From contig NZ_CP028960.1 of NCBI RefSeq assembly GCF_003071365.1, positions 1,612,001-1,676,000 on the forward strand: DNA of 64,000 bases, given 5' to 3'. Position 1 is the stretch's first letter, and every line of letters starts with the position of its first letter. Below the pieces are notes generated by a model. It was not told the origin of the DNA, ran no database searches, and was given only the letters and a program-made list of their open reading frames with translations. Below are positions 1,605 to 17,593 of the stretch, piece by piece. The DNA comes from Methyloceanibacter sp. wino2. Lineage in GTDB: Bacteria; Pseudomonadota; Alphaproteobacteria; Rhizobiales; Methyloligellaceae. The translations under genes and the position numbers were made by a program.

Positions 1605-2059
1605 TCGTCGTCCCTCAAAGCCTCCGCGCCTCAACGCTAATGTAGTCGGCGCTTTCATGAATTTGCAGAGGATCGCGCAAGAGCCTAAACATAATGGCAA
1701 AACAGGGCAGTTCCTTGGCTTTCCGAGGGGCGGCCCATCACAAAAACGCCAGCCTCGCATCTTTCCGGTGGTTTCTCGACGGCCATATTTGCCGCGCCGG
1801 GAGTTGAGCCGAGGATTTCATTGGCCGCTGCCCAAAAAAACGGCATCTGCGCGGATATGACCCGGGCATTGAGCGGGCCTCAATTTGATCGATACACGCA
1901 TCGATGCAATACTTTCCAATATCAACGCAATTCTAGGTTCTTACGAGCGCCGTTGCCGGTGCGCGCGAAACCTCGCGAGTCCGGCCCCATTCTTGCTTTA
2001 TTCTTGGAATGGCCTGGCGCGGCCAGCCGAAACCACCATCCCAAGAGAGGCATCAGAGT
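1605..2059. other. Divergent intergenic region
   Basis: These 455 bases separate the minus-strand acidic exported protein from the plus-strand N-acetylglutaminylglutamine amide operon and must hold both promoters. I find no convincing additional gene: the short open frames here lack family resemblance and ribosome binding sites. The one clear element is an inverted repeat at 1885-1909, listed separately. The DNA is visibly more A+T-rich than the flanking genes, as expected for a promoter region. Confidence 0.6.
1885..1909. promoter_or_regulatory. Inverted repeat, candidate operator of the NAGGN operon
   Basis: TTGATCGAT and ATCGATGCAA flank a six-base spacer. The arms match over ATCGAT, and again over TTG/CAA once a single inserted G is allowed. 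It lies about 150 bases upstream of the amidotransferase start. Its position suggests a regulator binding site, but no regulator gene is adjacent and no family consensus is recognised. Confidence 0.3.
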
Positions 2060-3835
2060 ATGTGCGGATTATGCGGCGAGATCACATTCGACGGCTCGCC
2101 TGCATCGGTCGAGGCCATGGAGGCCATGACCTGCTCAATGGTTCCGCGCGGCCCGGATGCCGGCGGCATCGTCTCGCGCGGCACCTTCGCCTTCGGCCAT
2201 CGGCGCTTGAAGATCATCGATCTATCTGAACGCGGCCAGCAGCCCATGGTTGATTCGGAGCTCGGGATCACGCTCGTCTTCAACGGCTGCATTTACAATC
2301 ATAAGGAGTTGCGGACGGAGCTGGAGGCCAAGGGCTACAGGTTCTTCTCCACCAGCGACACCGAGGTCGTCCTCAAGGCTTGGCATGCCTGGGGACCAGA
2401 GGCACCGAAGCATTTCAACGGGATGTTCGCGTTCGTCGTCTATGAGCGCGACACCGGCCGCGTCGCAATGGCCCGGGACCGGCTCGGGATCAAACCGCTC
2501 TACTACACCATGTCGGACAGGCGTCTTCGCTTCGCCTCGACACTGCCCGCGCTCGTTGCGGCGGGCGATGTCGACACGGCGCTCGATCCGGTCGGCCTTG
2601 CGCATTACATGACGTTTCATGCGGTCGTGCCGCCGCCGCACACGATCCTGCGTGGTGTGCGCAAATTGCCGGCCGCGACCTTGCGCCTGATCGAGCCCGA
2701 CGGAAGCTTCAAGGACACCCAGTATTGGGAGTTGCGCTTCGATCGCTCGGCGGAGGATCTCGCCACCAGTGACGACGAGTGGAAGGACCGTGTCGGCGCC
2801 GCGCTGCGGCGCGCGGTCGACAGGCGCATGATCGCCGACGTTCCGGTGGGCGTGCTGCTCTCCGGCGGCGTCGATTCCAGCCTGATCGTGGGCCTTTTGG
2901 CCGAGGCCGGCCAGCAGCATCTGAAGACGTTCTCGATCGGCTTCGAGGCCGCGCACGGCGAAGCCGGCGACGAGTTCAAATACTCGGACATCATCGCCAA
3001 GCATTTCGGCACCGACCACACCAAGATCATGATCCCCACGGGGCACATGCTCGAGTCTCTGCCGGAGACGATCGCGGCGATGTCGGAGCCCATGGTGTCC
3101 TACGACAATGTGGGTTTCTACCTGCTCTCCCGCGAAGTGGCGAAGCACGTGAAGGTCGTGCAGAGCGGCCAGGGCGCGGACGAGGTTTTCGCCGGGTACC
3201 ATTGGTATCCGAAGCTGGCGAATTCCAACGACGTGCTGACCGACTACAAGGCCCTGTTCTTCGACCGTGGCCGCGAGAAACTCGGCTCGCACCTGAACGA
3301 GACCTGGATGGCCGACGAGGACGAGCCGGCCCGGCTCGTGGAAGCGCACCTCATGAAAGACGGCGCCGAGACGCCGCTGGACCGCGCCTTGCGCATCGAT
3401 ACCACCGTGATGCTCGTCGACGATCCGGTGAAGCGCGTCGACAACATGACCATGGCCTGGGGTCTCGAGGCACGGGTGCCGTTCCTGGACCACGAACTCG
3501 TCGAGCTCGCCGCGCGCGTGCCGCCCGAGATGAAACTCAAGGACGAAGGCAAAGGCGTGCTGAAAGATGTGGCCCGCGATGTTATCCCTTCGTCCGTGAT
3601 AGACCGGCCGAAGGGCTATTTCCCGGTGCCTGCGCTGAAATATATCGACGGTCCCGTCCTGGAGATGACCCGCGACGCGCTGTCGTGCCAGGCCGCAAGC
3701 GATCGCGGCCTGTTCCGGCCGGCTTATCTCGACAGTCTTTTCTCAGACCCGAAATCGCACATCACACCGTTGCGCGGATCGGAGCTTTGGCAATGTGCGT
3801 TGTTGGAGCTTTGGCTTCAGTCCCACAACATCTAG
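2060..3835 (+). CDS. N-acetylglutaminylglutamine amidotransferase (asparagine synthase family)
   Basis: A 591-residue class II glutamine amidotransferase fused to an asparagine-synthase domain. The start at 2060 is fixed by chemistry: Met1-Cys2 (MCGLCGEI) exposes Cys2 as the N-terminal nucleophile, and AGAGAGG sits upstream. Frames opening earlier would bury the cysteine. The glutaminase domain covers about residues 1-200; the ATP-pyrophosphatase loop SGGVDSS is at 268-274. The neighbours decide the substrate: the next two genes are the NAGGN synthetase and the NAGGN-system M42 peptidase, so this enzyme most likely amidates N-acetylglutaminylglutamine to the neutral osmolyte NAGGN rather than making asparagine. 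The next gene starts 7 bases downstream, so the genes are probably cotranscribed. Confidence 0.93.
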   Translation: MCGLCGEITFDGSPASVEAMEAMTCSMVPRGPDAGGIVSRGTFAFGHRRLKIIDLSERGQQPMVDSELGITLVFNGCIYNHKELRTELEAKGYRFFSTSDTEVVLKAWHAWGPEAPKHFNGMFAFVVYERDTGRVAMARDRLGIKPLYYTMSDRRLRFASTLPALVAAGDVDTALDPVGLAHYMTFHAVVPPPHTILRGVRKLPAATLRLIEPDGSFKDTQYWELRFDRSAEDLATSDDEWKDRVGAALRRAVDRRMIADVPVGVLLSGGVDSSLIVGLLAEAGQQHLKTFSIGFEAAHGEAGDEFKYSDIIAKHFGTDHTKIMIPTGHMLESLPETIAAMSEPMVSYDNVGFYLLSREVAKHVKVVQSGQGADEVFAGYHWYPKLANSNDVLTDYKALFFDRGREKLGSHLNETWMADEDEPARLVEAHLMKDGAETPLDRALRIDTTVMLVDDPVKRVDNMTMAWGLEARVPFLDHELVELAARVPPEMKLKDEGKGVLKDVARDVIPSSVIDRPKGYFPVPALKYIDGPVLEMTRDALSCQAASDRGLFRPAYLDSLFSDPKSHITPLRGSELWQCALLELWLQSHNI

Positions 3836-3842
3836 GCACGGC

Positions 3843-5606
3843 ATGAGCACGGAAAAAAGCAGCGTAGAAGGCGCGACGGAAAACGGCGCTCCGCACGGCA
3901 CGACGCCACGTGCGGACCTGTCGCCGCGGGGTGGTCCCCAAAGCAACGTCGCGTTCGACTGCGGCTGGGGGCGCCTCTTGTTCGGCCAAACATTCGCCAG
4001 CGCGTCGGATTTGGCCGACTGCCTGCGAGCGGAAGGTCCCGGGCGGCGAGACATCGCCTTCTACATTCTCGATCCTCATGTGGTGCTGGCGGCGGCGCCC
4101 CAGGAACTGTTTCTCGATCCCTCGCATACCTATCGGCTGGATCTCAAAACCTACGAGCCGTCGACGACGGCGCCGCGCGGATTCCAGATTCGCAGACTGG
4201 ATTCACTGCAGGACGCCGAGGAGATCAATCGCATCTATGCGGCCCGGCGCATGGTAACGGTCGCACCGAACTTCTTTTGGGAGAACCGCGACAGCGAGGC
4301 GATCACCTACTTCGTCGCCGTGGACAACAAGACCAAGACGATCGTCGGAACGGTCACGGGCGTCGACCACAACGCGGCCTTCGGCGATCCTGAAAAGGGC
4401 TCCTCGTTGTGGTGCCTTGCCGTCGACACCCAATCGACGCTGCCTGGAATCGGTGAAGCGCTGGTGCGCCGACTCTCCGAGCACTTCAAGGAACGTGGTT
4501 GTTCGTACATGGATTTGTCCGTGCTCTACGACAACAAGCTGGCCATCGCGCTGTACGAGAAGCTGGGCTTCATCCGCTGGGCCACGTTCACCGTCAAACG
4601 CAAGAACGTCATCAACGAGCAGCTTTTCACCGAAACTTCCGACGAGTACGACGCGCTCAACCCTTACGCGCGAATCATCGTCGACGAGGCTCAACGGCGC
4701 GGCATCGCGGCTGAGATCATCGACGCCGAGGGCGGATTCTTCCGGCTCACCTATGGCGGCCGTTCCGTGGCCTGCCGCGAAAGTTTGACAGCGCTCACCA
4801 CCGCGATCGCCATGAGCATCTGCGACGACAAACGGGTCACGCGGCGTATCGTCAGCGCAGCGGGCGTGCGAGTTCCCGAGCAGATCACGGTGGACGACGA
4901 GGACACGGCCCGCGCCTTCATGGGTCGGTATGGGTCGATCGTGGTGAAGCCGGCCCGCGGCGAGCAGGGCAAGGGCATCGCCGTGGGTCTCACGAACTGG
5001 GACGATACGAAGGCGGCAATCGACTACGCCAAGACGCTCTGCAACGAGGTCATCCTCGAAGAATTCGTCCAAGGCGTCGATCTTCGGATCGTCGTCATCA
5101 ACTACCGCGTGGTTGCGGCCGCGATCCGCAAGCCCGCCACCATTATCGGCAATGGCAAGTCGACCGTGCGGGAACTCATTGAGCGCCAGACCAAACGCCG
5201 GCTCGCCGCGACGGGCGGTGAATCGTCCATACCGATGGACACGGAGACGGAACGATGCCTGGCCGCGGCGGGCTACACCTACGACGATATTCCCGAGCCT
5301 GACGCCTCCATCGCCGTCCGCAAGACGGCGAACCTGCACACGGGCGGCACGATTCACGACGTGACGGGCATTCTTCACCGGACGCTGATCGACGCCGCTG
5401 TCAATGCCGCCAAGGCGATCGAAATCCCCGTGACCGGCATCGATTTCATCGTGAAGACCCCGACGGAACCGGATTACTGGTTTATCGAGGCAAATGAACG
5501 CCCCGGGCTTGCCAATCACGAGCCCCAGCCGACCGCAGCGCGCTTTATCGACCTTCTGTTTCCCCAGACCGTGCCTGCCACGGTGCGCAAAGCGCTTCAA
5601 ATGTAG
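3843..5606 (+). CDS. N-acetylglutaminylglutamine synthetase (GNAT + ATP-grasp fusion)
   Basis: A 587-residue two-domain enzyme. Residues ~115-255 form a GNAT acetyltransferase domain, with CLAVDTQ and a PGIGEALVRR acetyl-CoA-binding loop, and YEKLGF near its end. Residues ~320-585 form an ATP-grasp ligase resembling cyanophycin synthetase and glutathione ligases, with VVKPARGEQGKGI and, near the C-terminus, GIDFIVKTP and FIEANERPG. The fusion fits a protein that acetylates glutamine and ligates it to a second glutamine to give the dipeptide amidated by the upstream enzyme. The ATG at 3843 (MSTEKSS) is preferred over an in-frame ATG at 3795 because the latter overlaps the preceding gene by about 40 bases. 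Cytoplasmic, osmoadaptation. Confidence 0.92.
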   Translation: MSTEKSSVEGATENGAPHGTTPRADLSPRGGPQSNVAFDCGWGRLLFGQTFASASDLADCLRAEGPGRRDIAFYILDPHVVLAAAPQELFLDPSHTYRLDLKTYEPSTTAPRGFQIRRLDSLQDAEEINRIYAARRMVTVAPNFFWENRDSEAITYFVAVDNKTKTIVGTVTGVDHNAAFGDPEKGSSLWCLAVDTQSTLPGIGEALVRRLSEHFKERGCSYMDLSVLYDNKLAIALYEKLGFIRWATFTVKRKNVINEQLFTETSDEYDALNPYARIIVDEAQRRGIAAEIIDAEGGFFRLTYGGRSVACRESLTALTTAIAMSICDDKRVTRRIVSAAGVRVPEQITVDDEDTARAFMGRYGSIVVKPARGEQGKGIAVGLTNWDDTKAAIDYAKTLCNEVILEEFVQGVDLRIVVINYRVVAAAIRKPATIIGNGKSTVRELIERQTKRRLAATGGESSIPMDTETERCLAAAGYTYDDIPEPDASIAVRKTANLHTGGTIHDVTGILHRTLIDAAVNAAKAIEIPVTGIDFIVKTPTEPDYWFIEANERPGLANHEPQPTAARFIDLLFPQTVPATVRKALQM

Positions 5607-5675
5607 GCGTCCTCGTACTACCCATAGCCAATCCATGAAGGGCGCGCCGACAAGCGCTCCGAACACCAGGGCTGC

Positions 5676-6857
5676 GTGATGACTATTCTCCACATCGATC
5701 TCGACTACCTTGCCGACACGCTAGAGACTTTCCTCAATATTCCGAGCCCCACGAGCTACACCGACAATGCGGTGCGGTGGTGCGGCGAGGAGCTGGACCG
5801 GCTTGGCATTCCGTTCGAGGTCACGCGGCGTGGCGCCATTCGGGCCGTCTTGCGTGGCAAGGAGCGGCGGCCGGCGCGCGCGATCGCAGCCCATCTCGAT
5901 ACGCTCGGCGCTCAAGTGAAGGCCATCAAGGACAATGGACGCTTGGCCGTGGTGCCCATCGGCTATTGGAGCGCGCGCTTCGCCGAGGGCGCGCGATGCA
6001 CGATTTTCACCGAACGCGGCAGCTATCGCGGGACGATCCTGCCGCTGATGGCCTCCGGGCATACGTTCGGCGACGATGTCGACGAGCAGCCGTCGGGTTG
6101 GCCGTACGTGGAGATCCGTGTGGATGCGCGGTGCTCGACGGCGGAAGAGGCTATGCGGCTCGGCGTCGAGGTCGGCGACATTGTCTCCATCGATCCCCAG
6201 CCGGAGTTCATGGAGAACGGGTTCATCAGCTCGCGGCATCTCGACGACAAGGCGGGCGTGGCGGTGATGTTCGCGGCGCTGAAAGCCCTGATCGCGGTAA
6301 AGGAACAGCTTCCGGTCGACGCCTATTTCCTCTTCACGATCGAGGAAGAGGTCGGCATCGGCGCGGCCAATATCTTGACGGAAGATATCGCCTCGCTCAT
6401 CGCGGTCGATAACGGCACGACCGCTCCGGGCCAGAACAGCGCCGAGTTCGGCGTCACACTCGCCATGGCCGACCAGAACGGTCCGTTCGACTACCACCTC
6501 ACGCGCAAACTGGCGCGTCTGTGCCGCGAGGACGACATCTTCTACCAGAAGGACGTTTTCCGGCATTACCGGTCCGATGTCGCCTCGGCTGTCGTGGCCG
6601 GCCACGACGTCCGCACGGCCCTGGTCTGCTTCGGGATCGATGCCTCCCACGGCTGGGAACGCATTCACGTTCACGCCTTGCGGTCTCTGGCGGAACTCAT
6701 CACAGCTTACCTTCTCAGCCCCATCGCGTTCTGGCGCGACGCCGAGGAGGTGAGCACGCTCGAGGACTTCACCAGCCAGCCTACGGAGAAGGCAGAGCAA
6801 AAGCTCTCGTCGGATGTGCGCATGGACGCGATCGAAGACGAGGCGGTGGACGAGTAG
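5676..6857 (+). CDS. NAGGN-system M42-family peptidase / aminoacylase-like metallohydrolase
   Basis: A 393-residue metallopeptidase of the M42/M20 type. Metal-ligand motifs are visible: AAHLDTLG near residue 70, HLDDKAGVAV near 188-197, and FTIEEEVGIGA near 218-228. The family is typically the third gene of NAGGN operons and is presumed to turn over or process the osmolyte; its exact reaction is not firmly established. The start codons ATGATG at 5676/5679 are equivalent choices, with no strong ribosome binding site. It lies 69 bases after the synthetase on the same strand. The last ~35 residues are acidic and probably disordered. Confidence 0.88.
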   Translation: MMTILHIDLDYLADTLETFLNIPSPTSYTDNAVRWCGEELDRLGIPFEVTRRGAIRAVLRGKERRPARAIAAHLDTLGAQVKAIKDNGRLAVVPIGYWSARFAEGARCTIFTERGSYRGTILPLMASGHTFGDDVDEQPSGWPYVEIRVDARCSTAEEAMRLGVEVGDIVSIDPQPEFMENGFISSRHLDDKAGVAVMFAALKALIAVKEQLPVDAYFLFTIEEEVGIGAANILTEDIASLIAVDNGTTAPGQNSAEFGVTLAMADQNGPFDYHLTRKLARLCREDDIFYQKDVFRHYRSDVASAVVAGHDVRTALVCFGIDASHGWERIHVHALRSLAELITAYLLSPIAFWRDAEEVSTLEDFTSQPTEKAEQKLSSDVRMDAIEDEAVDE

Positions 6858-7021
6858 CGGCGCGCACGGCTCCCCGAGCGCCAATCGGCAGGGGAAGGTC
6901 CAAAAAGGCGCTAGGCGCCAGGGCGCCCGCGACCATAACGCGCAATCTGACCCCGGTACTGAATCCGAAGTGTCATGTTACGCCGGTAGGTTCCACTGTC
7001 ACAGACCTACCGAGTCACACC

Positions 7022-7786
7022 ATGTTCTCACTTGCAGGAAAAAAGGCTCTCGTCCTTGGAGTCGCCAACGAGGACTCCATCGCGTTCGGCTGCGCGAAGG
7101 CGTTCCGCGACCAAGGCGCGGACCTTGCGATTACCTATCAAAACGATAAAGCCGAGAAGCATGTGCGGCCGCTCGCCGAGAAGCTCGGCACCGACATCAT
7201 ACTTCCCCTCGATGTGCGCGAAGATGGTCAGTACGGGCAGCTGTTCGACCGCATTCGTCAAATCTGGGGACATATCGATATCTGCCTGCACTCGATCGCG
7301 TTTTGCCCGCGCGAGGATCTGCACGGCCGCGTGGTGGACTGTTCGCGCGATGGTTTCATCACGGCGATGGACATCTCGGTCTACTCCTTCATCCGCATGG
7401 TGCGCCGGGCCGAGCCCTTGATGCGCCATGGGGGCAGTTGCATGACCGTCTCGTTTTTCGGAGCGGAAAAGGTTGTCGAGAACTACAACATCATGGGACC
7501 GGCCAAGGCCGCGCTGGAGTCGGTCACGCGCTACATGGCCGCGGAGCTCGGACCCAAGGGCATCAGCGTAAACGCCTTGTCCCCGGGGCCGCTGAAGACC
7601 CGCGCCGCCTCTGGCATTTCCCGTTTTGACGAATTGATGAATGAGGCGGCCGAGCGCGCGCCCACCCATCACCTGGCGTCGATCGAGGATATCGGCGCCT
7701 ATGCGGCATTTCTCGCCAGCCGCGAGGCGGAGAACGTCACGGGTGGCGTGCACTACATCGACGGCGGGTATCACATTGTCGGATGA
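7022..7786 (+). CDS. fabI: FabI-like enoyl-[acyl-carrier-protein] / enoyl-CoA reductase
   Basis: A 254-residue short-chain dehydrogenase of the FabI branch. It has the divergent FabI nucleotide loop GVANEDSIAFG at residues 13-23 and the catalytic Tyr155-x6-Lys162 pair in NYNIMGPAK. The second tyrosine conserved in E. coli FabI (Tyr146) is Phe145 here (SFFGAEK). It opens a tight cluster with a DUF3141 protein, MaoC-Pta and AckA, so it may act on CoA or specialised acyl substrates rather than be the housekeeping FabI. The start MFSLAGKKALVLG matches the family; a long upstream in-frame extension is not credible because it overlaps the M42 peptidase gene. The 164-base upstream gap presumably holds the cluster promoter. 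Confidence 0.88.
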   Translation: MFSLAGKKALVLGVANEDSIAFGCAKAFRDQGADLAITYQNDKAEKHVRPLAEKLGTDIILPLDVREDGQYGQLFDRIRQIWGHIDICLHSIAFCPREDLHGRVVDCSRDGFITAMDISVYSFIRMVRRAEPLMRHGGSCMTVSFFGAEKVVENYNIMGPAKAALESVTRYMAAELGPKGISVNALSPGPLKTRAASGISRFDELMNEAAERAPTHHLASIEDIGAYAAFLASREAENVTGGVHYIDGGYHIVG

Positions 7787-10130
7787 GCCCCCGAGCGGAT
7801 CCGGTAGCTATGCACAGAGTCAGGACGCCTATGCCCGGCATGCGGCGGAAGACCTGCAGCAGGCGGAAGCGCAAGCGCGCCTCCTTGGCGAGCTTTCGGT
7901 ACAGCACGGATCGGATATCGCGGAGAAGGCCCACACAGTCTGGAGCGGCCTTGCCGCGGAGTGGGCTGGGCTAGCCGCCAGCTTCGCAGCCCCCTTCGCC
8001 GCTGCCAGCTTGGCTCCCTATTGGAAGGATGCGGCCCAGCGCTGGGTGCTGACGCTCGAGACGCTGTGCCGGCGCGGCGATGCGTGCGCGGCCCGGGAGG
8101 CCGAGGGCTTCACGCCGGTCCTCGCCTTCGACTACGAGATCATCGTGGACGGACGGTTGCTCGAGCGTCCGGCCAACTACGCACTTGTGCGGATCATTCC
8201 GCCGGAAGGTACGCCACCGCCCCGCAACGACCGCCGTCCCTGGGTGATCATCGATCCACGCGCCGGTCAGGGAAGCGGCATCGGCGGCTTCAAGAGCGAG
8301 TCCGAGGTGGGCGAGGCGCTCAACGACGGCCACCCGGTCTACTTCGTCATCTTCTTCCGGGACCCCGAGCCGCATCAGACGCTGGCGGAAGTCTGCGCGG
8401 CCGAGGCGGAATTCCTGAAAGCGGTTCGGGAGCGTCATCCGAGGAGTTCCAAGCCCCTCGTCACCGGCAATTGTCAGGGAGGCTGGGCCGCCATGATCCT
8501 GGCCGCGACCCATCCGGATCTGATGGGACCCGTGGTGATCGCGGGCACGCCGCTCTCCTATTGGGCCGGCAAGGTCGGACAGAATCCGTTTCGGTATCTC
8601 GCCGGTATGGAAGGCGGCGCCGTTCCGGCTCTGCTGACCGCCGATCTCGGTGCGGGCAAGTTCGACGGCGCGACGCTGATCCACAATTTCGAACAGCTCA
8701 ATCCCGGCAAGACGATCTGGCGCAAGAACTACGACATCTTCTCGAAGGTCGATTGGGACTCCGAGCGCTATCTGGACTTCGAACGCTGGTGGTCCGGCTT
8801 CTACTTCATGAACGAGGCGGAGATACGCTGGATCGTCGAGAACCTCTTCGTGGGCAACAAGCTGGTACGCGGTGAGGCGGTGCTCGACGACGGCACGCCG
8901 GTCGACCTCACACGGATCGATTCGCCTGTCGTCGTATTCGCTTCCCACGGCGACAACATTACCCCACCGCAGCAGGCACTCTTCTGGATCGCCGATCTCT
9001 ACGAGTCCGTCCAGGAACTGCGCGCGCGCGGTCACGTCATCGCCTACACGCTCCATGACAGCATCGGTCATCTCGGCATCTTCGTGTCCGCAAAAGTCGC
9101 GAGTAAGCAGCACAAGGAGATCGCCTCGGTCGTCCAGACGATCGAGTCGCTGGCGCCGGGTCTCTACGAGATGCTTATTCACGAGGGCGATGACGTGCCG
9201 ACGGTCTCGTTCGAGACCCGCACGATCGACGACATCCTGGCGCTTGGAGGAGACCGCAAAGAAGAAGCGGCTTTCGCCGCCGTCGCACGGCTTTCGGAGT
9301 GGGCGGTCAAAACCTATGAACTGACCATGCAGCCCCTGCTGCGTGCGCTCGTCACGCCGGAGGTCGCCGAGACGTTGCGCCAAGCGCATCCGATGCGCGC
9401 GCAGTACACATTCTTCTCGAGCGACAATCCATTGTTCGGCGACATCTATTCGCTGGCGGAAGCGACACGGGATGCACGCGAGCAGGCTGACGAGGACAAT
9501 CCGTTCTTACGGGCAGAGCGCCTGTCGGCGACGGTAATCGAGGAGAGTTTCAACCTAGCCCGCGACATGCGTGATGCCTGCATGGAAATCGCTTTCCTCG
9601 GACTCTACGCGAACCCTTGGATGATGCGGCTTGGAGCCACATACCGGGCCCGCCCGCAAGAGCATAACATTCGAAGGCTGCCTCAAGTTCGTGACGCAAT
9701 CCGAAGCGCAGAAGCTGGCGGCTACAAGGAAGCGATCGTACGCATGTTGATCCTACTGGCACGTGCGCGCGGCTCCGTCCGGCGCGACCGCCTAGAGCGT
9801 ACCAACCGCCTACTCCATTCGCGCGCGCCATTCGATACGATGACGCCGGACCGGCGGGCCCGCCTCATCAACGAGCAGAACATGATCGTCGAATTCGCCG
9901 GCGACGGTGCCGTCTCGTCTCTCCCGGTGCTGCTGCGTGACGACGTCGACCGTGTCCGTGCGGTCAATCTTGTCTTCGACATCGTCGGTCCCATCGAAGA
10001 GATGGATGAACGAACGATCGCCATGTTCAAGCAATTGCAATCAACATTGTACACGATGGCCCGGGGGTGGAAGGAACCCGCCCCAGGCAGGACCAACGGC
10101 GTGGCTTCCGGCATGCGCATTGGCGCTTGA
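7776..10130 (+). CDS. DUF3141 protein, PHA-synthase-like alpha/beta hydrolase (copy 1)
   Basis: A protein of about 784 residues in the DUF3141 family. The N-terminal ~85 residues are helical. The core begins at YWKDAAQRWV and VLAFDYEIIVDGR and contains VTGNCQGGW, in which Cys233 sits in a G-x-C-x-G-G box. Asp393 (SHGDNITPP) and His432 (SIGHLGIF) complete a plausible Cys-Asp-His triad like that of polyhydroxyalkanoate synthases. The C-terminal ~300 residues are helical and unassigned. No in-frame ATG precedes the core; TTG at 7776, behind GGCGGG and overlapping the end of fabI by 11 bases, is the best start, but the N-terminus is uncertain. The overlap suggests translational coupling. Its substrate is unknown. 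Confidence 0.85.
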   Translation: MSDEPPSGSGSYAQSQDAYARHAAEDLQQAEAQARLLGELSVQHGSDIAEKAHTVWSGLAAEWAGLAASFAAPFAAASLAPYWKDAAQRWVLTLETLCRRGDACAAREAEGFTPVLAFDYEIIVDGRLLERPANYALVRIIPPEGTPPPRNDRRPWVIIDPRAGQGSGIGGFKSESEVGEALNDGHPVYFVIFFRDPEPHQTLAEVCAAEAEFLKAVRERHPRSSKPLVTGNCQGGWAAMILAATHPDLMGPVVIAGTPLSYWAGKVGQNPFRYLAGMEGGAVPALLTADLGAGKFDGATLIHNFEQLNPGKTIWRKNYDIFSKVDWDSERYLDFERWWSGFYFMNEAEIRWIVENLFVGNKLVRGEAVLDDGTPVDLTRIDSPVVVFASHGDNITPPQQALFWIADLYESVQELRARGHVIAYTLHDSIGHLGIFVSAKVASKQHKEIASVVQTIESLAPGLYEMLIHEGDDVPTVSFETRTIDDILALGGDRKEEAAFAAVARLSEWAVKTYELTMQPLLRALVTPEVAETLRQAHPMRAQYTFFSSDNPLFGDIYSLAEATRDAREQADEDNPFLRAERLSATVIEESFNLARDMRDACMEIAFLGLYANPWMMRLGATYRARPQEHNIRRLPQVRDAIRSAEAGGYKEAIVRMLILLARARGSVRRDRLERTNRLLHSRAPFDTMTPDRRARLINEQNMIVEFAGDGAVSSLPVLLRDDVDRVRAVNLVFDIVGPIEEMDERTIAMFKQLQSTLYTMARGWKEPAPGRTNGVASGMRIGA

Positions 10131-10199
10131 GGCACCGGGGTTTCGCCTGACGAACCGAGCGTTATTACAGCGGAAAGCAGTAGACCGCAGGAGGCATAC

Positions 10200-11609
10200 A
10201 TGATCCGCGAGAACAAGCTCTACGACGAACTTTCGATTGGCGACACGGAGTCGGTCAAACGCGTCTGCACCGCGAACGACCTTTTCGTCTTTGCCCATGC
10301 GTCCGGAAATCTCAATCCGCTTCATATTCCGGATGACGACGAGCACGACGATCACGAGGCGGTCGCACCGTCCATGTGGGTCGGCGCCCTGATCTCGTCG
10401 GTGCTCGGCAATGTGCTGCCGGGACCGGGAACATTGTACCGGTCACAGACCCTTCGGTTTCTCGACCGGGCCCACGTGGGCGACGAACTGACGATCACCG
10501 TCACCGTGAAGGAGAAGCTCCCGAACTCGGTCGTGGTGATGGACACGGTTGTCAAAGGACGCGGCGGCGAGACGGTCGCCGAGGGTGTGGCCGAGGTGCT
10601 CGCGCCGGAGCGCAAAGTCCGGGTCGACATGGAAGAGTTGCCGGAGATCGTCCTCCAGCGTCACCAACACTTCGACCACTACATTCACTCTTGCGAGGGA
10701 CTTGAGCCGCTCGTGACCGCCGTCGTCGCGCCGGAAGAGAAAGAGTCTCTCGGCGGCGCGCTCCTAGCGGCACGGCATGCGCTCATCCGGCCGATCCTCA
10801 TCGGATCCGAGCCGCTCATTCGTCAGGCTGCCCACGAGGCGGGCGAAGATCTCGGCATGTTCGAGATCATCGACATTCCCGATCATGTCGCCGCGGCCGG
10901 CAGGGCCGTCGAACTCGTGCACGAGGGTTACGCCGGGGCGATCATGAAGGGCCATTTGCACACGAGCGATCTGTTGCATCAGGTTCTGAAGAGCAAGGGC
11001 GGCTTGCGCACGAGCCGCCGCATGAGCCACGCCTTCGTGATGGATGTGCCGGGGCTCGATCATCCGCTGATCATCTCGGATGCGGCCATCAACATTACGC
11101 CGGACCTCGCGACCAAGGTGGACATTACCCAGAGCGCCATCGACGTGGCCCTGGCTCTCGGCATCCAGAAACCCAAGGTCGGCGTGTTGTCCGCGGTCGA
11201 GACGGTGAACCCTCAGATCCCCTCGACCCTAGATGCGGCGGCACTTTCGAAAATGTCGGATCGCGGCCAGATCAAAGGCGGTGTCGTCGACGGCCCGCTC
11301 GCGATGGATAATGCCATGGACGCCGAAGCAGCCACGACCAAGGGCGTCACGGGCCTCGTCGCCGGGCATGCCGAGGTTCTCATCGTTCCCAATCTCGAGG
11401 CGGGCAACATGCTGGCGAAACAGCTCGCCTTCGTGTCCGGCGCCGAGGCCGCAGGCATTGCGCTCGGTGCCTCCGTACCCATCATCCTGACCAGCCGCGC
11501 CGACGGCGAGAAGGCGCGGCTCGCCTCTTGCGCCATCGCGGTGCTGTACCGGTTCTGGCAGGAGAACGGTTTCCCCGTCGGGTCACGACTTGCGGAGGCG
11601 GCCGAGTAA
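10200..11609 (+). CDS. pta: Bifunctional MaoC-like / phosphate acetyl(butyryl)transferase
   Basis: A 469-residue fusion. Residues ~10-135 form a hot-dog MaoC/(R)-hydratase-like domain. Residues ~165-460 form a phosphotransacetylase/phosphotransbutyrylase domain that interconverts acyl-CoA and acyl-phosphate. The hydratase motif reads SGNLNPLH (Asn37...His42) where PhaJ/MaoC hydratases have Asp-x4-His, so hydratase activity is doubtful. AGGAGG at 10190-10195 gives a strong ribosome binding site for the ATG at 10200. The stop codon overlaps the ackA start (TAATG), so the two proteins are coupled and would together convert acyl-CoA to acid plus ATP. The fusion is common in Rhizobiales clusters with DUF3141, ackA and fabI. 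Confidence 0.92.
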   Translation: MIRENKLYDELSIGDTESVKRVCTANDLFVFAHASGNLNPLHIPDDDEHDDHEAVAPSMWVGALISSVLGNVLPGPGTLYRSQTLRFLDRAHVGDELTITVTVKEKLPNSVVVMDTVVKGRGGETVAEGVAEVLAPERKVRVDMEELPEIVLQRHQHFDHYIHSCEGLEPLVTAVVAPEEKESLGGALLAARHALIRPILIGSEPLIRQAAHEAGEDLGMFEIIDIPDHVAAAGRAVELVHEGYAGAIMKGHLHTSDLLHQVLKSKGGLRTSRRMSHAFVMDVPGLDHPLIISDAAINITPDLATKVDITQSAIDVALALGIQKPKVGVLSAVETVNPQIPSTLDAAALSKMSDRGQIKGGVVDGPLAMDNAMDAEAATTKGVTGLVAGHAEVLIVPNLEAGNMLAKQLAFVSGAEAAGIALGASVPIILTSRADGEKARLASCAIAVLYRFWQENGFPVGSRLAEAAE

Positions 11610-12802
11610 TGACCCATATCCTCACGCTCAATGCAGGATCGTCGTCCATCAAGTTCGCGCTGTTCGAGGCGGACAGTCTCGACGAGCGCGTGAGGGGACA
11701 GATCGAAGGGATCGGGACGAAACCGCATCTGAGCGCGCGGATCGCCGAGGCGGAAAAGACCGAACAGGATCTCGACGCCGCCGAGGTCAGCGATCATGCC
11801 TCGGCACTGGTCGCGATCCTCGCGCTCATGGACGACCGATTCTCCGGCGCCCAGGTGAAGGCTGTCGGGCATCGCATCGTCCATGGCGGCCCCGACTACG
11901 GCTCGCCGGTGATCATCGACGAAGACCGCTTCGCCGCTCTCGAGAAACTGATTCCGCTGGCGCCGTTGCACCAGCCGCACAATCTATCCGGGGTGCGGGC
12001 CGCGCAGGCGGCCTTCCCGGAGGCGACGCAGGTTGCGTGTTTCGACACGGCGTTTCACCGGCAACACCCCTGGGTGAACGACACCTACGCGTTGCCGTTG
12101 GAGCTCTATGAAGAAGGTGTCCGGCGCTACGGATTTCACGGCCTCTCCTACGAGTATGTGACGCGCGCGCTGCGGCAGCTGGCGCCGATGCACGCAGCCG
12201 GGCGCGTGGTCGTCTCACATCTGGGCAACGGCGCTTCGATGTGCGCCATCCAAGACGGACAGAGTGTCGGCTCAACGATGGGCTTCACCGCGCTCGACGG
12301 CCTGCCCATGGGGACACGCTGCGGTCAGCTCGATCCCGGCGTCGTTCTATACCTGATGGCCGAGAAAGGCCTCTCGGCGGCGGAGATCGAGAACCTGCTC
12401 TACAAGCAGTCCGGGCTCAAAGGTCTGTCGGGAATCTCGAACGATATGCGCGTGCTGGAAGAGGCCGGCACGATCGAGGCACGGCGCGCGATTGACTATT
12501 TCGTCTATCGCATTCGCCGCGAGCTCGGGGCCATGGTGGCGATCTTGTCGGGTCTCGACGCGCTCGTCTTCTGCGGTGGCATTGGCGAGAACGCTTGGCG
12601 CATCCGCGAACGCGTCTGCCAGGACTTTGGCTGGCTGGGTCTCGAACTGGACGAATCGCAGAACCGCGCGGGCGAGACGATCATCTCGTCCCAGCGCTCC
12701 CGTGTCCGCGTCTTCATCATCCGCACCAATGAAGAGTTGATGATCGCCTCTCACGCAGCCGAGAAGGCGCAAGAGGCCATCGCGTCGGCCGCGGCGGCCT
12801 GA
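11609..12802 (+). CDS. ackA: Acetate kinase (acyl kinase)
   Basis: A 397-residue acetate/propionate kinase that transfers phosphate between acyl-phosphate and ADP. Family motifs are clear: LNAGSSSIKFALF at the N-terminus, GHRIVHGG, CFDTAFH, FHGLSYEYV, SHLGNGASM and FCGGIGENA. The start at 11609 shares bases with the pta stop, with GGAGG upstream at 11593-11597; an in-frame start at 11528 would lie inside pta. It is the last gene of the fabI-DUF3141-pta-ackA unit. Acetate is the default substrate, but butyrate or 3-hydroxybutyrate cannot be excluded given the neighbours. Confidence 0.95.
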   Translation: MTHILTLNAGSSSIKFALFEADSLDERVRGQIEGIGTKPHLSARIAEAEKTEQDLDAAEVSDHASALVAILALMDDRFSGAQVKAVGHRIVHGGPDYGSPVIIDEDRFAALEKLIPLAPLHQPHNLSGVRAAQAAFPEATQVACFDTAFHRQHPWVNDTYALPLELYEEGVRRYGFHGLSYEYVTRALRQLAPMHAAGRVVVSHLGNGASMCAIQDGQSVGSTMGFTALDGLPMGTRCGQLDPGVVLYLMAEKGLSAAEIENLLYKQSGLKGLSGISNDMRVLEEAGTIEARRAIDYFVYRIRRELGAMVAILSGLDALVFCGGIGENAWRIRERVCQDFGWLGLELDESQNRAGETIISSQRSRVRVFIIRTNEELMIASHAAEKAQEAIASAAAA

Positions 12803-12943: not shown

Positions 12944-13846
12944 ATGCGGCTTGGGTTAGGGTTTGCGCGGCACCAGGGTTGCGCCCACGGTGCTCTGAGG
13001 GTCGGCGCCATCTGTGCCGTCCTCGCGGGCGGCTTTGCCGCAACCGATGCACATGCTCAAGCGGCGCTGGTCGACGGCCCCGCGGGCGGCGAGACCGTTG
13101 TGCGGAAGAGCGTCGCGCTTGGCGCGGCTGCGATCATCCAGCCTAAATACGAAGGCTCGAACGAGCACGAAGTCATTCCGATCCCAATGATCATTCCCTC
13201 GTTTGTCGAGACCGAGGACACGCCGGACGGCATCTTCAAGGAAGTACGCCAGCGCGTCACCTTCCGGGGGCTCGATGAAATCCGGATCCGCGCTTTTGGC
13301 GGCGACCATTTTCAGATCGGGGCGGTGACCGGTTACATCACGACGCGCGATCAAGACGACGGCGATCTTCTGAAAGGCCTCGGCGATGTCGAGGGCGGTC
13401 TCGTGCTTGGCGCGTACACAGCCTACACGCTCGGCGCCTTCACGTTCGATGCCGCCTATATCGACAAGGTCACGGGCGATTCCGCCGGTCCGCAATACCG
13501 GTTCGGCATCGAGACGGAGAAGCAACTGACGGATCGCTTGAAGGCCGGCGTCCGCGTCGGCACAACCTTTGCCAGCGCCGAATACATGCAGACCTATTTC
13601 GGCGTGACGCAGGCCGAGGCCAACCGCTCCAGGGCAGGCCTGCCGGTCTATAAGACCGATGGCGGCATCAAAGACGTGTTCGTCTCCGTCGGCGGCACCT
13701 ATGACATCAGTGACCGCTGGGTCTTGAAGGGCGGTGTGAACTATAGCCGGCTTCTGGACGAGGCCGCGGACAGCCCCGTCGTACAGACACCCGATCAGGT
13801 GTCAGGGACCGTGGGCCTCGCCTATCGCTTCTACTGGGACCGCTAG
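12944..13846 (+). CDS. MipA/OmpV family outer-membrane protein
   Basis: A 300-residue beta-barrel protein. A signal peptide covers about residues 1-39 (cleavage near DAHAQA), followed by short amphipathic strands with the MipA/OmpV signature: LGAAAIIQPKYEGS near the start, the FRGLDEIRIRAF strand, EKQLTDRLKAGVRVGTTFA, and a C-terminal strand ending LAYRFYWDR with an aromatic residue near the end. MipA scaffolds murein hydrolases in E. coli, while other members are channels or adhesins, so the role here is open. It stands alone between ackA and a convergent DUF3141 gene. Confidence 0.87.
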   Translation: MRLGLGFARHQGCAHGALRVGAICAVLAGGFAATDAHAQAALVDGPAGGETVVRKSVALGAAAIIQPKYEGSNEHEVIPIPMIIPSFVETEDTPDGIFKEVRQRVTFRGLDEIRIRAFGGDHFQIGAVTGYITTRDQDDGDLLKGLGDVEGGLVLGAYTAYTLGAFTFDAAYIDKVTGDSAGPQYRFGIETEKQLTDRLKAGVRVGTTFASAEYMQTYFGVTQAEANRSRAGLPVYKTDGGIKDVFVSVGGTYDISDRWVLKGGVNYSRLLDEAADSPVVQTPDQVSGTVGLAYRFYWDR

Positions 13847-13877: not shown

Positions 13878-16343
13878 CTACTCGGCGGCCGACGGCATCC
13901 TCGAACCCCCACGCAGCGTACCGAAACCGCGGCCGGCGAGCGGATCCTTCGTGATGTCGCCGGAAATCGGCGACAGGCCTAAGACGTGGCGGAAGCGCTG
14001 AAGCATTTCCAGCGTATTCGGCGACATCTCCTCGATGGACCCCGGCACAAATTGGGCAACCTCGGCAGCCAGCTTCCGGTCTTCGGCGGTCTTGAGGAGA
14101 TCCGGCAATGTCTGGATGGCCGCCTCACGCTCGAACTGAACCACCAGGGTCTGCTCGTCGATGATCTGCCGCCGCTGGTCGGTGCTGAGCGACCGGAAGG
14201 GTTCGTCCTGCGTGAGCACCGTGCCGGACCGCTCCAGACGGTCACGCCGCACTTCGCCGCGCGAGTCCGCAAGCAGGATCAGCATGCGGATCACAGCCTC
14301 GGCGAAACCGCCTTCCGACATGTGACGCAGAGCCGACTGAACTTCGGGGAGCGCCCGAAGTTCGGCCTCGTTCTTGAGCGTCCGTCCCAGCAGGTTGGGC
14401 GCACCGAACGTCGCCGCCCAAGGCGTCGACCACATCGAGAAGAACATGTTCTCGTACATCGCGTCGCGGACGTCGCGCATGAAGTCGATAGACTGTTCGA
14501 AGAGTGATGCGAACACCCGCTCGGCCTGAACGAAGGGGTTGTCGCCGGCTACCGGCTCGCGCTCTTCCTTGGCTTTCTCGGCCAGACTCGTCACGCCGGC
14601 CATCACGGGATTGCGGCCGGACACCAGCCCGCGCTGCAGCCGCAAGGGATGCAGCATCCGCGCGAGTTCGGCGATACCCGGATTGACTGCCGCCTTCACG
14701 AAAGGCCGCAAGCAAAGATCGTAGAGCTGCGCCTGAATCTCCGACATGCGGGCAACGGCCGCGAATGGCTGCTCGTCGTCGCGCTTGGCGTCGAGAGCGC
14801 GGAGTTGATCCAGCTTGCGTTCGTGGAAGCTCACCGTAAACTCACGGCCCTCGCCGTGACCCTGATAGTCGTCGATCTTCATTTCGTAGAGGCCAGGCGG
14901 GAGCGACTCGATCGCTTCCATCGTGCCGGTCATCTCCGTGTGCTCGCGTTTGGCGATCTTGGAGGAAACGAAAATACCCAAATGGCCGACCTGGTCGTGC
15001 ACCATGTAGATGATGCGCTGGCCACGGATTCTGATTTCAGAGGTGTCCGCATAGCTGTCCGCGATCCAGTTCAACGCCTGCTGCGGCGGCGTGATGTTGT
15101 CGCCTTGGCTGGCGAACACGATAATCGGTGAACGGATGTTTTTTACATCGATGTGCCGCCCGGGCTCGAGCTGCGCTTCGTTCTTTGCGAGCCGATTGCC
15201 GACGAAGAGCTGTTCGACGATCCAGTGGATTTCGGCCTCGTTGAGAAGGAAGAACCCGCCCCACCACTTCTCGAATTCCAAGAAGCGCTCGCGGCCATGG
15301 TCGATGTCGCGATAGAGGTCGTAATACTTGCCGAAATAGTTGCGGCTCGGATTGAGCATCTCGAAGTTCTGCACCAGATGGGCGCCGTCGAATACGCCAT
15401 CGCCCATGTCCGACCAGAACATCGGCTGCCATGTGCCGCCCAAAATGCCGCCGTTGTAGCGCATCGGGTATTTGCCGACCTCTCCGCCCCAGGTCGCAAC
15501 GGGCGACCCGTTCAGAACAATCGGCCCGGTAAGGTCGTGATTGGTCGCGGCAAGGAGAAGCGTTGCCCAACCGCCCTGGCAGTTGCCGGTGACGACGGGC
15601 TTTGGGGATTGGGGATGGCGACGTCCCACCTCGCGAACGAACTCGGCTTCCGCGCGCGTCACATCGGCAAGGGTCTGGCCGGGGATCGGCTCACGCCGGA
15701 ACGCGACGAAATAGACCGGGTGACCCTTCGCCAAGGCAACGCCGACTTGGCTGTCGGACTTGAAGCCGCCGATGCCGGCGCCGTGCCCCGCACGCGGATC
15801 GATGATCACGTAGGGCCGCGCGGTGGCGTCGATCTCGATGCCTTCGGGCGGCAAGATCTTCAGCAGCATGTAGTTGCAGGGATGGCGCAGATCTGCGCCG
15901 TCGAGCACGACCTCGTAGTCGTAGGTCAGGACAGGGGGACACCCCGCCGCCTCGTGCTCCAAGAAGATGTCGCCGCGCTCGCGCATGGTGTCGAGGAACA
16001 GAGCCCCGCGCTGCATACTGTCGTTCACGTAAGCCTGCCAGGCCCCCGCGAGACCATCAAAGTCGGGATTTTCGGAGAAGCCCTTGGCGATATCCGACAG
16101 CGTGGCCAAGGAGGCCTTGAGACGTTCTTGATGCTCGTGGGCAATGCGCTCGGCGTGACTCATCGCGCTGTGCATCAGGAAGGTCTGCGTCGTCTGGAGG
16201 CCCTCGGAGACTTGTGTCGCAGCCTCGACCCGCCGGTTGAGCATCACGGCAGGCGATTCCGAGACCGCCTTCGCGACGGAGTCGAACATGGATTCAATAA
16301 CGTCGTCGGAAGTCGGGCCGGTGTCGGCAACCGTATCGGTCAT
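13878..16343 (-). CDS. DUF3141 protein, PHA-synthase-like alpha/beta hydrolase (copy 2)
   Basis: An 821-residue paralogue of the protein at 7776-10130. It shares YDYEVVLDGA, IDPRAGHGAGIGGFKSDS, VTGNCQGGWA, ASQGDNITPPQQA and VGHLGIFVS. The predicted triad is Cys255, Asp415 and His454. The N-terminal ~105 residues are helical and resemble phasin-like amphipathic sequence (DSVAKAVSES, TLSDIAKGFSENP), which would suit granule or membrane association, though this is inference. It is transcribed away from a 3-hydroxybutyryl-CoA dehydrogenase gene across a 389-base regulatory gap. Possible roles are a PHA synthase relative, a depolymerase or an acyl transferase. Confidence 0.88.
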   Translation of the reverse strand: MTDTVADTGPTSDDVIESMFDSVAKAVSESPAVMLNRRVEAATQVSEGLQTTQTFLMHSAMSHAERIAHEHQERLKASLATLSDIAKGFSENPDFDGLAGAWQAYVNDSMQRGALFLDTMRERGDIFLEHEAAGCPPVLTYDYEVVLDGADLRHPCNYMLLKILPPEGIEIDATARPYVIIDPRAGHGAGIGGFKSDSQVGVALAKGHPVYFVAFRREPIPGQTLADVTRAEAEFVREVGRRHPQSPKPVVTGNCQGGWATLLLAATNHDLTGPIVLNGSPVATWGGEVGKYPMRYNGGILGGTWQPMFWSDMGDGVFDGAHLVQNFEMLNPSRNYFGKYYDLYRDIDHGRERFLEFEKWWGGFFLLNEAEIHWIVEQLFVGNRLAKNEAQLEPGRHIDVKNIRSPIIVFASQGDNITPPQQALNWIADSYADTSEIRIRGQRIIYMVHDQVGHLGIFVSSKIAKREHTEMTGTMEAIESLPPGLYEMKIDDYQGHGEGREFTVSFHERKLDQLRALDAKRDDEQPFAAVARMSEIQAQLYDLCLRPFVKAAVNPGIAELARMLHPLRLQRGLVSGRNPVMAGVTSLAEKAKEEREPVAGDNPFVQAERVFASLFEQSIDFMRDVRDAMYENMFFSMWSTPWAATFGAPNLLGRTLKNEAELRALPEVQSALRHMSEGGFAEAVIRMLILLADSRGEVRRDRLERSGTVLTQDEPFRSLSTDQRRQIIDEQTLVVQFEREAAIQTLPDLLKTAEDRKLAAEVAQFVPGSIEEMSPNTLEMLQRFRHVLGLSPISGDITKDPLAGRGFGTLRGGSRMPSAAE

Positions 16344-16592: not shown

Positions 16593-16732
16593 ACGCAAGA
16601 TGGTTAAGCCAGCGGGGAAGAGCGTTCCGCTTGTCCGGGTGACGCACGGGACTTGATCAAGGGACCCGATCTTGGCCCGCAGCCCGGCCCCGGCGGATCC
16701 TCTGCATAGCGTCTGAAAAAATGGGGGCGTCA

Positions 16733-17593
16733 ATGGCAATCGAGATTCGCAAGATCGGCGTGATCGGCGCGGGCACGATGGGCAACGGGATTGCGCAGAC
16801 CTTCGCCGCGGCCGGTTACCCGGTGGTGATGCGCGACCTGAAACCCGAGTATGTCGACCGGGGGATGGCGACCGTCGCGAAGAGCCTCGACCGCCTTGTT
16901 TCCAAAGAGAAGATCAGCAGCGCCGACCGGGATGCGACGCTGGAACGGCTCACCGGGACGACGGAGCTGTCCGACTTGGCCGACTGCGATCTGGTGGTCG
17001 AGGCCATTCTCGAAGTCTTCGATCTCAAGGCGGGTCTCGTCAAGGAGCTGGACGAGGTCTGCCGTCCGGACGCGATCCTCGCAACCAACACCTCGTCCAT
17101 CTCCGTGACGCGCATCGCGGCGGTGTCCAAGGACCCCTCGCGGGTGATCGGGATGCATTTCTTCAATCCCGTCCCGCTGATGATGCTGGTGGAGATCATC
17201 CGCGCGCTCCAGACGTCCGACGACGTCTGCGACGCGGTGACGGACATGGTCGCCAAGGTCGGCAAGGAGGCGAAGGTCTCCAAGGACAGCTACGGCTTCG
17301 TGGTCAACCGTGTGCTCATCCCGATGATCAACGAGGCGGTGAACTGCGTGGCCGAGGGCGTCGCCGCGCCAGAGGACGTCGACGACATGATGAAGCTCGG
17401 CGCCAACCACCCGATGGGGCCCTTGGCGCTGGCCGACCTGATCGGCCTCGATGTGTGTCTCAACATCATGGAGACGCTCTACAACGGCTTCGACGACCCT
17501 AAGTACCGGCCGAGCCCGCTTCTGAAGCAGATGTGCGCGGCCGGCTATCTCGGCCGCAAATCCGGCAAGGGCTTCTTCGACTACGGCAGCTAG
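16733..17593 (+). CDS. hbd: 3-hydroxybutyryl-CoA dehydrogenase
   Basis: A protein of about 286 residues that oxidises (S)-3-hydroxybutyryl-CoA to acetoacetyl-CoA with NAD(P). It has the N-terminal Rossmann loop GVIGAGTMGNGIAQ, the NTSSISVT segment, the catalytic HFFNPVP histidine, FVVNRVLIPMINEA, and the C-terminal GRKSGKGFFDY. The second ATG (16733, MAIEIRK) is preferred because GGGGG lies six bases upstream; the first ATG at 16721 has no ribosome binding site. It is divergent from DUF3141 copy 2, linking it to C4 acyl-CoA metabolism. Confidence 0.95.
   Translation: MAIEIRKIGVIGAGTMGNGIAQTFAAAGYPVVMRDLKPEYVDRGMATVAKSLDRLVSKEKISSADRDATLERLTGTTELSDLADCDLVVEAILEVFDLKAGLVKELDEVCRPDAILATNTSSISVTRIAAVSKDPSRVIGMHFFNPVPLMMLVEIIRALQTSDDVCDAVTDMVAKVGKEAKVSKDSYGFVVNRVLIPMINEAVNCVAEGVAAPEDVDDMMKLGANHPMGPLALADLIGLDVCLNIMETLYNGFDDPKYRPSPLLKQMCAAGYLGRKSGKGFFDYGS

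Follow-up and report, generated by a model that had tools for sequence, protein, structure and literature searches.

Why should a gene of the DUF3141 family share a compact block with genes for an enoyl reductase, a phosphotransacylase and an acetate-family kinase? We examined this question in a 64,000-nt stretch of the Methyloceanibacter sp. wino2 genome (hereafter the window; C1:1612001-1676000 of a 3.21-Mb single-contig genome), where four adjacent genes, all on the + strand, lie within 7022-12802. They encode a FabI-like enoyl-thioester reductase of the NF005717 subfamily (7022..7786, 254 aa), a DUF3141 protein (no. 1; 7776..10130, 784 aa from TTG 7776), a MaoC-like domain fused to a Ptb/Pta-type phosphotransacylase (10200..11609, 469 aa) and an acetate/propionate-family kinase, AckA (11609..12802, 397 aa), which is the sole PF00871 match in its genome. 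Both the common strand and the four families named in the initial annotation were confirmed, the latter by profile scores over the cut-offs. The DUF3141 family is large (at least 582 confirmed loci) and has no assigned function, and its members have been labelled in print both synthase-like and depolymerase; recurring partners, a PhaC-like triad and altered MaoC and FabI residues now give testable predictions for it. We favour, with modest confidence, an accessory operon, gained and lost sporadically, that would serve the dissimilation of acyl-coenzyme A (acyl-CoA) under stress, namely low oxygen and/or phosphate limitation as judged from relatives.

In such an operon, DUF3141 would form a Cys-linked acyl (3-hydroxyacyl) intermediate and would shuttle the acyl group from or to CoA, with a small acceptor or an oligoester as the other partner, instead of producing bulk polyhydroxyalkanoate (PHA). 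The FabI-like enzyme would reduce enoyl-CoA and thereby remove NADH, the Ptb-like domain would convert acyl-CoA to acyl-phosphate, and AckA would release the free acid with formation of ATP, while the altered MaoC domain may merely bind acyl-CoA. The net effect would be the regeneration of CoA and NAD and a gain of one ATP when respiration is limited. The path from acyl-CoA through acyl-phosphate to acid plus ATP, which had been proposed at the outset, follows from the phosphotransacylase and acetate-kinase families. If right, this reading would help to explain the rise of Pta-AckA in rhizobia under phosphate limitation and in nodules. In Sinorhizobium meliloti, both Pta and AckA activities are said to go up under phosphate stress.

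The DUF3141 protein scored 738 bits against PF11339 and weakly against the class III PhaC profile TIGR01836 (29.5 bits, E = 3.6e-7). PF07167 (PhaC_N), which reaches 177-192 bits in three PhaC controls, matched neither this protein nor a second DUF3141 protein of the window. Gly-Asn-Cys230-Gln, Asp390 and His429 were invariant in a 50-row alignment (numbering of window:7785-10127); the aligned sequences contain the GxCxG[GA] box and Cys-Asp-His triad that characterise PhaC, and the triad aligned to PhaC C364/D519/H547. Profile comparison (hhalign) with six PhaC proteins, including that of the same genome, gave E = 1.3e-6 and paired all three catalytic residues, with GNCQGG, GDNITP and GHLGI opposite the PhaC stretches GYCVGG, EDHIAP and GHIAG; with a smaller alignment, A1, the match (E = 1e-6) covered Cys and Asp only. 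The AlphaFold2 model had a predicted local distance difference test score of 90.8 and a predicted TM-score of 0.88, and its 11 top Foldseek matches in the PDB were all PHA synthases (best E = 1.1e-7). The box reads GNCQGG in 84 of 88 DUF3141 rows and GNCQAG in four, Halomonas KO116 among them. Together, the predicted fold and the aligned triad show DUF3141 to be PhaC-like and bear out its description as PHA-synthase-like. This kinship is already published: DUF3141 is grouped with PHA synthases in an excerpt of PMC11878206, and 'uncharacterised', the word of the initial annotation, is to that extent too strong.

A box, a triad and a predicted fold of this kind speak for a PHA synthesis cluster, in which an R-hydratase domain would supply DUF3141 acting as a PHA synthase of a new class. 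The Halomonas protein 'PhaC2' has indeed been put forward as a possible new synthase class (PMC3227634, excerpt). According to excerpts of PMC3227634 and PMC8686332, it has a mass of 89-93 kDa, the box GNCQAG, a longer C-terminus and a Cys-Asp-His triad. From its box, mass and description we infer that it is a DUF3141 protein; PhaC2 of Halomonas bluephagenesis TD01 and Halomonas O-1 shares the triad, and its box is the one found in four of the 88 rows. However, the O-1 protein made no PHA in E. coli (PMC8686332, excerpt). The window protein itself is without a PF07167 match, and a PF07167 PhaC gene is already present in 17 of 17 genomes of the genus. We therefore consider a synthesis cluster very unlikely, and the fused MaoC-Pta protein argues in the same direction.

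The fusion scored 634 bits against NF006045 (cut-off 282) and its phosphotransacylase domain 140 bits against PF01515 (cut-off 24). The Pfam MaoC model gave no match in it at E <= 0.001, and the N-terminal part was recognised by NF006045 and by R-hydratases in the PDB (5cpg, E = 9e-28). Catalysis by (R)-specific hydratases depends on an Asp and a His of the hot-dog fold. At the aligned position the PDB hydratases 5cpg, 3ir3 and 1iq6 have Asp; the window protein reads SGNLNPLH, with Asn37 in place of the Asp and His42 kept. Because its MaoC domain is without the catalytic Asp, a working hydratase step in the window is doubtful. A set of 39 rows, made up of the window protein and 38 others taken from DUF3141 loci, showed Asn in 27, Asp in eight and Glu in one, with no readable residue in three. 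A phylum-wide sample took in 40 of the 42 full-length MaoC-Pta matches outside the genome under study (G409 and G441 were left out). In the 12 stretches with PhaC nearby, which include one weak 24% PhaC match and one locus, L219, assigned to this class by hand because its DUF3141 match was just 28%, the residue was Asp in ten, Ala in one and unreadable in one. Five stretches with DUF3141 nearby gave four Asn, two of which duplicate sequences of the first set, and one unreadable residue; L250 and L253 repeat the L045 and L055 sequences of that set. The 23 stretches with neither gene gave 13 Asp, nine Asn and one unreadable.

A tree of 76 MaoC-Pta rows contained a single split (100/100) between a clade of 42 rows that includes the window (40 Asn, 2 Asp) and a clade of 34 rows (29 Asp, 1 Ala, 4 unreadable). 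The PhaC-linked rows, 12 with the weak match, without exception fell in the second clade and none in that of the window, which counts further against a synthesis cluster. On this tree, the Asp/Asn split is one old change and not many independent ones, and a Fisher p of 0.001 for it consequently overstates independence. On the other side, a PF07167 PhaC fills the neighbouring slot in other MaoC-Pta clusters. At L118 5903-10770 (G018, same family) it stands in first place ahead of MaoC-Pta and AckA, and this locus is a PhaC version of the same operon.

The FabI-like reductase scored 423 bits against NF005717 (cut-off 337) and keeps the Tyr-x6-Lys catalytic pair (Tyr156/Lys163 in E. coli numbering, with Phe at 146). 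In E. coli FabI, Lys201, Arg204 and Lys205 dock acyl carrier protein (ACP). Position 204 was Asp in 45 of 45 module-type FabIs, counted after 12 of 57 non-control rows had been excluded as other short-chain dehydrogenases, and Arg in nine of nine canonical controls (E. coli K-12 and eight from six genomes). In the module-type enzymes, Arg also replaces the Leu of Leu-Ala-Ala-Ser. With Ser/Asp/Glu at positions 201/204/205, the window enzyme is without the basic residues of the docking patch; at 201 and 205, where E. coli has basic residues, the other canonical FabIs vary. Asp204 hints at acyl-CoA rather than acyl-ACP as the substrate. It is the mark of a FabI subfamily, since L135, one of the 45, has no adjoining DUF3141 gene. 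The genome holds two further FabI-type genes besides the module copy, which, with the PhaC gene present throughout the genus, indicates that the module copies are extra.

If these enzymes act together, their genes should keep company elsewhere. We recorded the partners found within up to 10 kb of DUF3141, with neighbours called by codon scoring, at the best 80 of at least 582 confirmed loci, a set that is not a random sample and to which all counts out of 80 refer. FabI, Pta and AckA were all nearby at 26 loci and Pta with AckA, without FabI, at nine (35 with both Pta and AckA in total); FabI alone was found at 11, FabI with AckA at two, FabI with Pta at two, and AckA alone and Pta alone at one each, counts that include no correction for contig ends. 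The commonest partner was FabI (41/80), followed by Pta and AckA (38/80 each). The four genes form a conserved unit, and its recurrence, seen in Alpha-, Beta- and Gammaproteobacteria, exceeds chance. In Hyphomicrobiales, however, its conservation is not general but sporadic: DUF3141 exceeded the cut-off in six of 17 genomes of the genus and was present at full length in five of 115 genomes of a class sample. Of the four class-sample genomes other than the one studied, two had all partners (L130, L131) and two had none (L132, L133). AckA occurs in seven of the 17 genus genomes, in the seventh (G012) beside phosphoketolase. Phosphoketolase was rejected as a fixed neighbour; it lies beside the module in S. 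meliloti but was found at 0/80 loci with a partial query.

DUF3141 adjoins Pta on plasmids of S. medicae, E. adhaerens and C. necator N-1. On two further plasmids, L106 (Halomonas sp. KO116) and L107 (Polaromonas pPNAP02), it occurs with AckA, accompanied by Pta plus PhaC or by FabI, in regions that hold metal-translocating P-type ATPases and, in Polaromonas, also ppk2. A polyphosphate kinase 2 gene was seen in the module stretches of several unrelated genomes (L036, L073, L107, L120, L131, L243), and a link of the module to phosphate or energy shortage is possible.

The kinase brings ordinary acetate metabolism into consideration. In that case, Pta-AckA would act on acetyl-CoA only, in overflow or assimilation, and the FabI-like and DUF3141 proteins would be passengers or would feed acetate into poly-3-hydroxybutyrate. 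AckA scored 400 bits against TIGR00016 (cut-off 293) vs 52 bits against the butyrate kinase profile TIGR02707; by these scores it is of the acetate/propionate type and not a butyrate kinase. Its motifs align with those of the M. thermophila enzyme (1g99), and Val, Leu and Phe are kept in the acyl pocket, the motifs and pocket being sites to which residue roles are assigned in acetate kinases. In the reference list of PMC8231600 (excerpt), the title of Summers 1999 calls the S. meliloti genes phosphotransacetylase and acetate kinase, and the two-subunit CoA-transferase genes near 15/80 loci could use acetate. The phosphotransacylase domain, however, is far nearer to phosphate butyryltransferase (TIGR02706, 304 bits) than to phosphate acetyltransferase (TIGR00651, 57 bits), with 7vg9 as its best PDB match (236.7 bits), and the rank of FabI as the most frequent partner also counts against this explanation. 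We regard it as rather unlikely.

Ala replaces the usual Pro of the pocket in 40 of 41 module kinases, and we considered this residue, which suggested an enlarged pocket, as a sign of C4 specificity. Control kinases numbered 31 with the window's own copy set aside and 30 once L166, which is the module kinase of G055, had been dropped; they have Ala in 12 (two of them beside phosphoketolase), Pro in 10, Thr in seven and Gly in one. Because 12 of these 30 kinases without a DUF3141 tie share the Ala, the argument was dropped. Of the initial suggestion of 3-hydroxybutyrate, butyrate or acetate overflow, one part gains from C4-type neighbour genes in some relatives, but the AckA pocket does not favour C4 over acetate, and the acyl group handled may be acetyl, butyryl or 3-hydroxybutyryl.

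Those neighbours also bear on the chemistry of DUF3141 itself, which might act inside the cell as an (oligo)ester hydrolase or as a thiolase and so mobilise oligomers of 3-hydroxybutyrate, with the other genes processing the released C4 units. Among ten chosen neighbouring proteins that were scanned, 3-hydroxybutyrate dehydrogenases exceeded the TIGR01963 cut-off in L036, L055, L059 and L086. A 3-hydroxybutyryl-CoA dehydrogenase (>150 bits) lies near 4/80 loci, and another lies beside the second DUF3141 gene of the window. One genome report labels DUF3141 as PhaZ, the PHA depolymerase (PMC8050969, excerpt), and Cys triads are also found in PhaZ (PMC11878206, excerpt). Yet the top fold matches are synthases, the first PhaZ in the Foldseek list being at rank 21, and 3-hydroxybutyrate-type neighbours occur in a minority of loci; this alternative appears improbable to us. 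Fused CoA-transferase genes were found near 4/80 loci, a fifth match, in L086, being a 37-bit fragment. C4 chemistry fits in that some relatives carry 3-hydroxybutyrate or 3-hydroxybutyryl-CoA dehydrogenase or CoA-transferase near the module.

A more specific form of the C4 idea is that the module ferments C4 units, from storage or overflow, and conserves energy in doing so. The PhaC-like Cys of DUF3141 would lift 3-hydroxybutyryl units onto CoA, with dehydration taking place elsewhere; the FabI-like enzyme, freed from ACP, would reduce crotonyl-CoA with NADH; the Ptb-like domain with its MaoC binding module and AckA would release butyrate (or 3-hydroxybutyrate) with ATP; and the second, facing DUF3141 would run the opposite reaction. 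If true, this would give aerobic proteobacteria a route for the fermentation of stored polyester at times when oxygen or phosphate is scarce. We hold the full scheme to be decidedly improbable and retain the broader acyl-CoA dissimilation operon as our preferred reading.

The stress conditions attached to that operon are judged from relatives, by their upstream sequences and by reported induction. FNR-like sites (<=1 mismatch) numbered 21 in 110 upstream stretches vs ~3.2 in shuffles (20 shuffles; six of these sites are a single orthologous one within one clade), and in S. meliloti one such site is present, at one mismatch. PHO-box-like sites (<=3 mismatches) numbered 30 vs ~5.1, a count in which two loci with divergent promoters enter twice; such sites occur in two loci whose gene order is the same, L025 with 1 mismatch and L030 with 2. 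Upstream of the window operon itself, a stretch conserved in four species forms a candidate promoter/operator (6928..6996, + strand; CGCGACCATAACGCGCAA, then TGAATCC.AAGTGTCATGTT...GGTAG.TTCCA, the spacer being otherwise variable), and no site matching sigma54 or Crp patterns was found there.

Several observations weigh against the operon as we read it. Upstream of the window genes no FNR-like site at <=1 mismatch and no PHO-box-like site at <=3 mismatches was found, the enrichment being confined to relatives. The same scan also misses the S. meliloti operon: it finds no PHO-type site in L104 8601-9061, a stretch that lies ~330 bp ahead of the DUF3141 start in S. meliloti, and because that gene is reported to be PhoB-controlled, the PHO-box scan lacks power. 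At 28/80 loci DUF3141 has no partner in the fetched stretch, and the protein may thus work alone. In the Foldseek comparison the TM-score of the PhaC matches reaches 0.60 by target and only ~0.3 by query, and other alpha/beta hydrolases follow close behind (rank 12, E = 1.6e-6). The ACP patch comes down to one residue, because canonical alphaproteobacterial FabIs keep Arg204 and not Lys201 or Lys205; a literature search aimed at the docking role found no further paper on it. Asp-type MaoC-Pta also adjoins DUF3141, in Chromatiaceae and a few betaproteobacterial loci, so the loss of the Asp is not required for the module. Finally, the pocket Ala, shared by 12 of the 30 control kinases, is no argument for C4.

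The arrangement of the genes agrees with that of an operon. The open reading frame list offered ATG 7641, inside fabI, as the DUF3141 start; TTG 7776 is most likely the start, and with it fabI and DUF3141 overlap by 11 bp, as they also do in the sister loci L123, L124, L125 and L184. Between DUF3141 and MaoC-Pta there is a 69-bp gap, with AGGAGG ahead of start ATG 10200, and pta shares 1 bp with ackA (TAATG at 11607-11611). Of three junctions said to overlap or nearly so, two therefore do (11 and 1 bp) and the third is a gap of 69 bp; the spacing of -11, +69 and -1 bp is compatible with one transcript.

Downstream lie a gene for a MipA/OmpV-like outer membrane protein (12944..13846, +) and then, convergent on the - strand, DUF3141 no. 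2 (13878..16343, 821 aa, 776 bits), which the initial annotation omitted. It belongs to another deep clade of the family: in a quick tree the two window genes fell into separate, well-supported clades (14 rows, 98; 22 rows, 99), and a recent tandem duplication was rejected on this ground. A similar facing pair occurs in Methylocapsa (L060, L079), but in sub-clades neighbouring rather than identical to those of the window. Five genomes (the one studied, G004, G005, G010 and G014) have the operon, then MipA, then the facing DUF3141, flanked on one side by an osmoprotectant operon, for N-acetylglutaminylglutamine, and on the other by a region of haem genes, in which HemY and HemC were assigned by eye. 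DUF3141 no. 2 is present in all five genomes with the whole operon at this site and, among the genomes compared there, both DUF3141 genes and AckA occur only together. At the same site G007 has MipA only, G013 a module-type fabI and MipA, and G003 MaoC-Pta only (82%); in G008 the contig ends there. The DUF3141 genes of G003 are at other sites, in other module types. MipA is no more than a possible member of the operon, since it remains at the site in G007 and G013, both without DUF3141.

Directly upstream on the same strand (2009-6857), the osmoprotectant set comprises an asparagine-synthase-like open reading frame (assigned by eye), N-acetylglutaminylglutamine synthetase (TIGR03103, 880 bits) and an M42 peptidase (TIGR03106, 567 bits). 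The 3-hydroxybutyryl-CoA dehydrogenase gene at 16721-17593, divergent from DUF3141 no. 2, is present in G000, G004 and G014, whereas the stretches fetched from G005 and G010 did not show it. In the L184 assembly (G004), every one of four genes (the two DUF3141 copies, AckA and MipA) is broken into two frames, for which assembly errors seem likelier than parallel decay.

Comparison with known systems places this operon among related clusters. The Asn-type MaoC clade, FabI Asp204 and the paired DUF3141 genes are not mentioned in the literature excerpts surveyed; of these three points, only that of FabI was the object of a specific search. In strain NGR234, AckA and Pta are 118-228-fold up in bacteroids (PMC3732241, excerpt); a guessed coordinate range on pNGR234b contained none of the query genes, and a link of NGR_b13630/40 to DUF3141 is putative. 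The low-oxygen-activated (lxa) locus of B. cenocepacia, compared by description, resembles the window in its putative phosphate acetyl/butyryl transferase BCAM0298 and in PhbB among the co-rising proteins (PMC6127331, excerpt). Groups D1/D2 of Burkholderia sensu lato have phaC-phaJ/pta-ackA(-fabI) clusters (PMC8231600, excerpt), and Halomonas, too, has a phaC/pta/ackA/fabI cluster. By their description, the Burkholderia clusters are like the window in the MaoC(PhaJ)-Pta fusion (D1), ackA, fabI and a PhaC-like gene; the authors call the synthase PhaC, with 2-24% identity to the ORF of the S. meliloti operon. The PhaC-linked MaoC-Pta proteins of our phylum sample are of the Asp clade, unlike the Asn type of the window.

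The closest counterpart is the S. meliloti ORF-pta-ack-fabI operon, which is reported to be co-transcribed and PhoB-controlled (Summers et al. 1999, J Bacteriol 181:2217, cited in an excerpt of PMC8231600). On pSymA (ml28) the same four functions are adjacent and annotated in the order DUF3141-pta-ackA-fabI, with DUF3141 at 944 bits. As this order runs DUF3141, phosphate acetyltransferase, acetate kinase, FabI, the ORF of the published operon is very likely DUF3141. To call the window genes an uncharacterised pathway was consequently too strong. The two systems nevertheless differ: S. meliloti Pta has 318 aa and is without a MaoC domain, whereas that of the window is a MaoC fusion, and the window has the order fabI-DUF3141-MaoC/Pta-ackA with a facing second DUF3141. 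With the S. meliloti, Burkholderia and Halomonas clusters already described, the operon of the window is thus known in kind.

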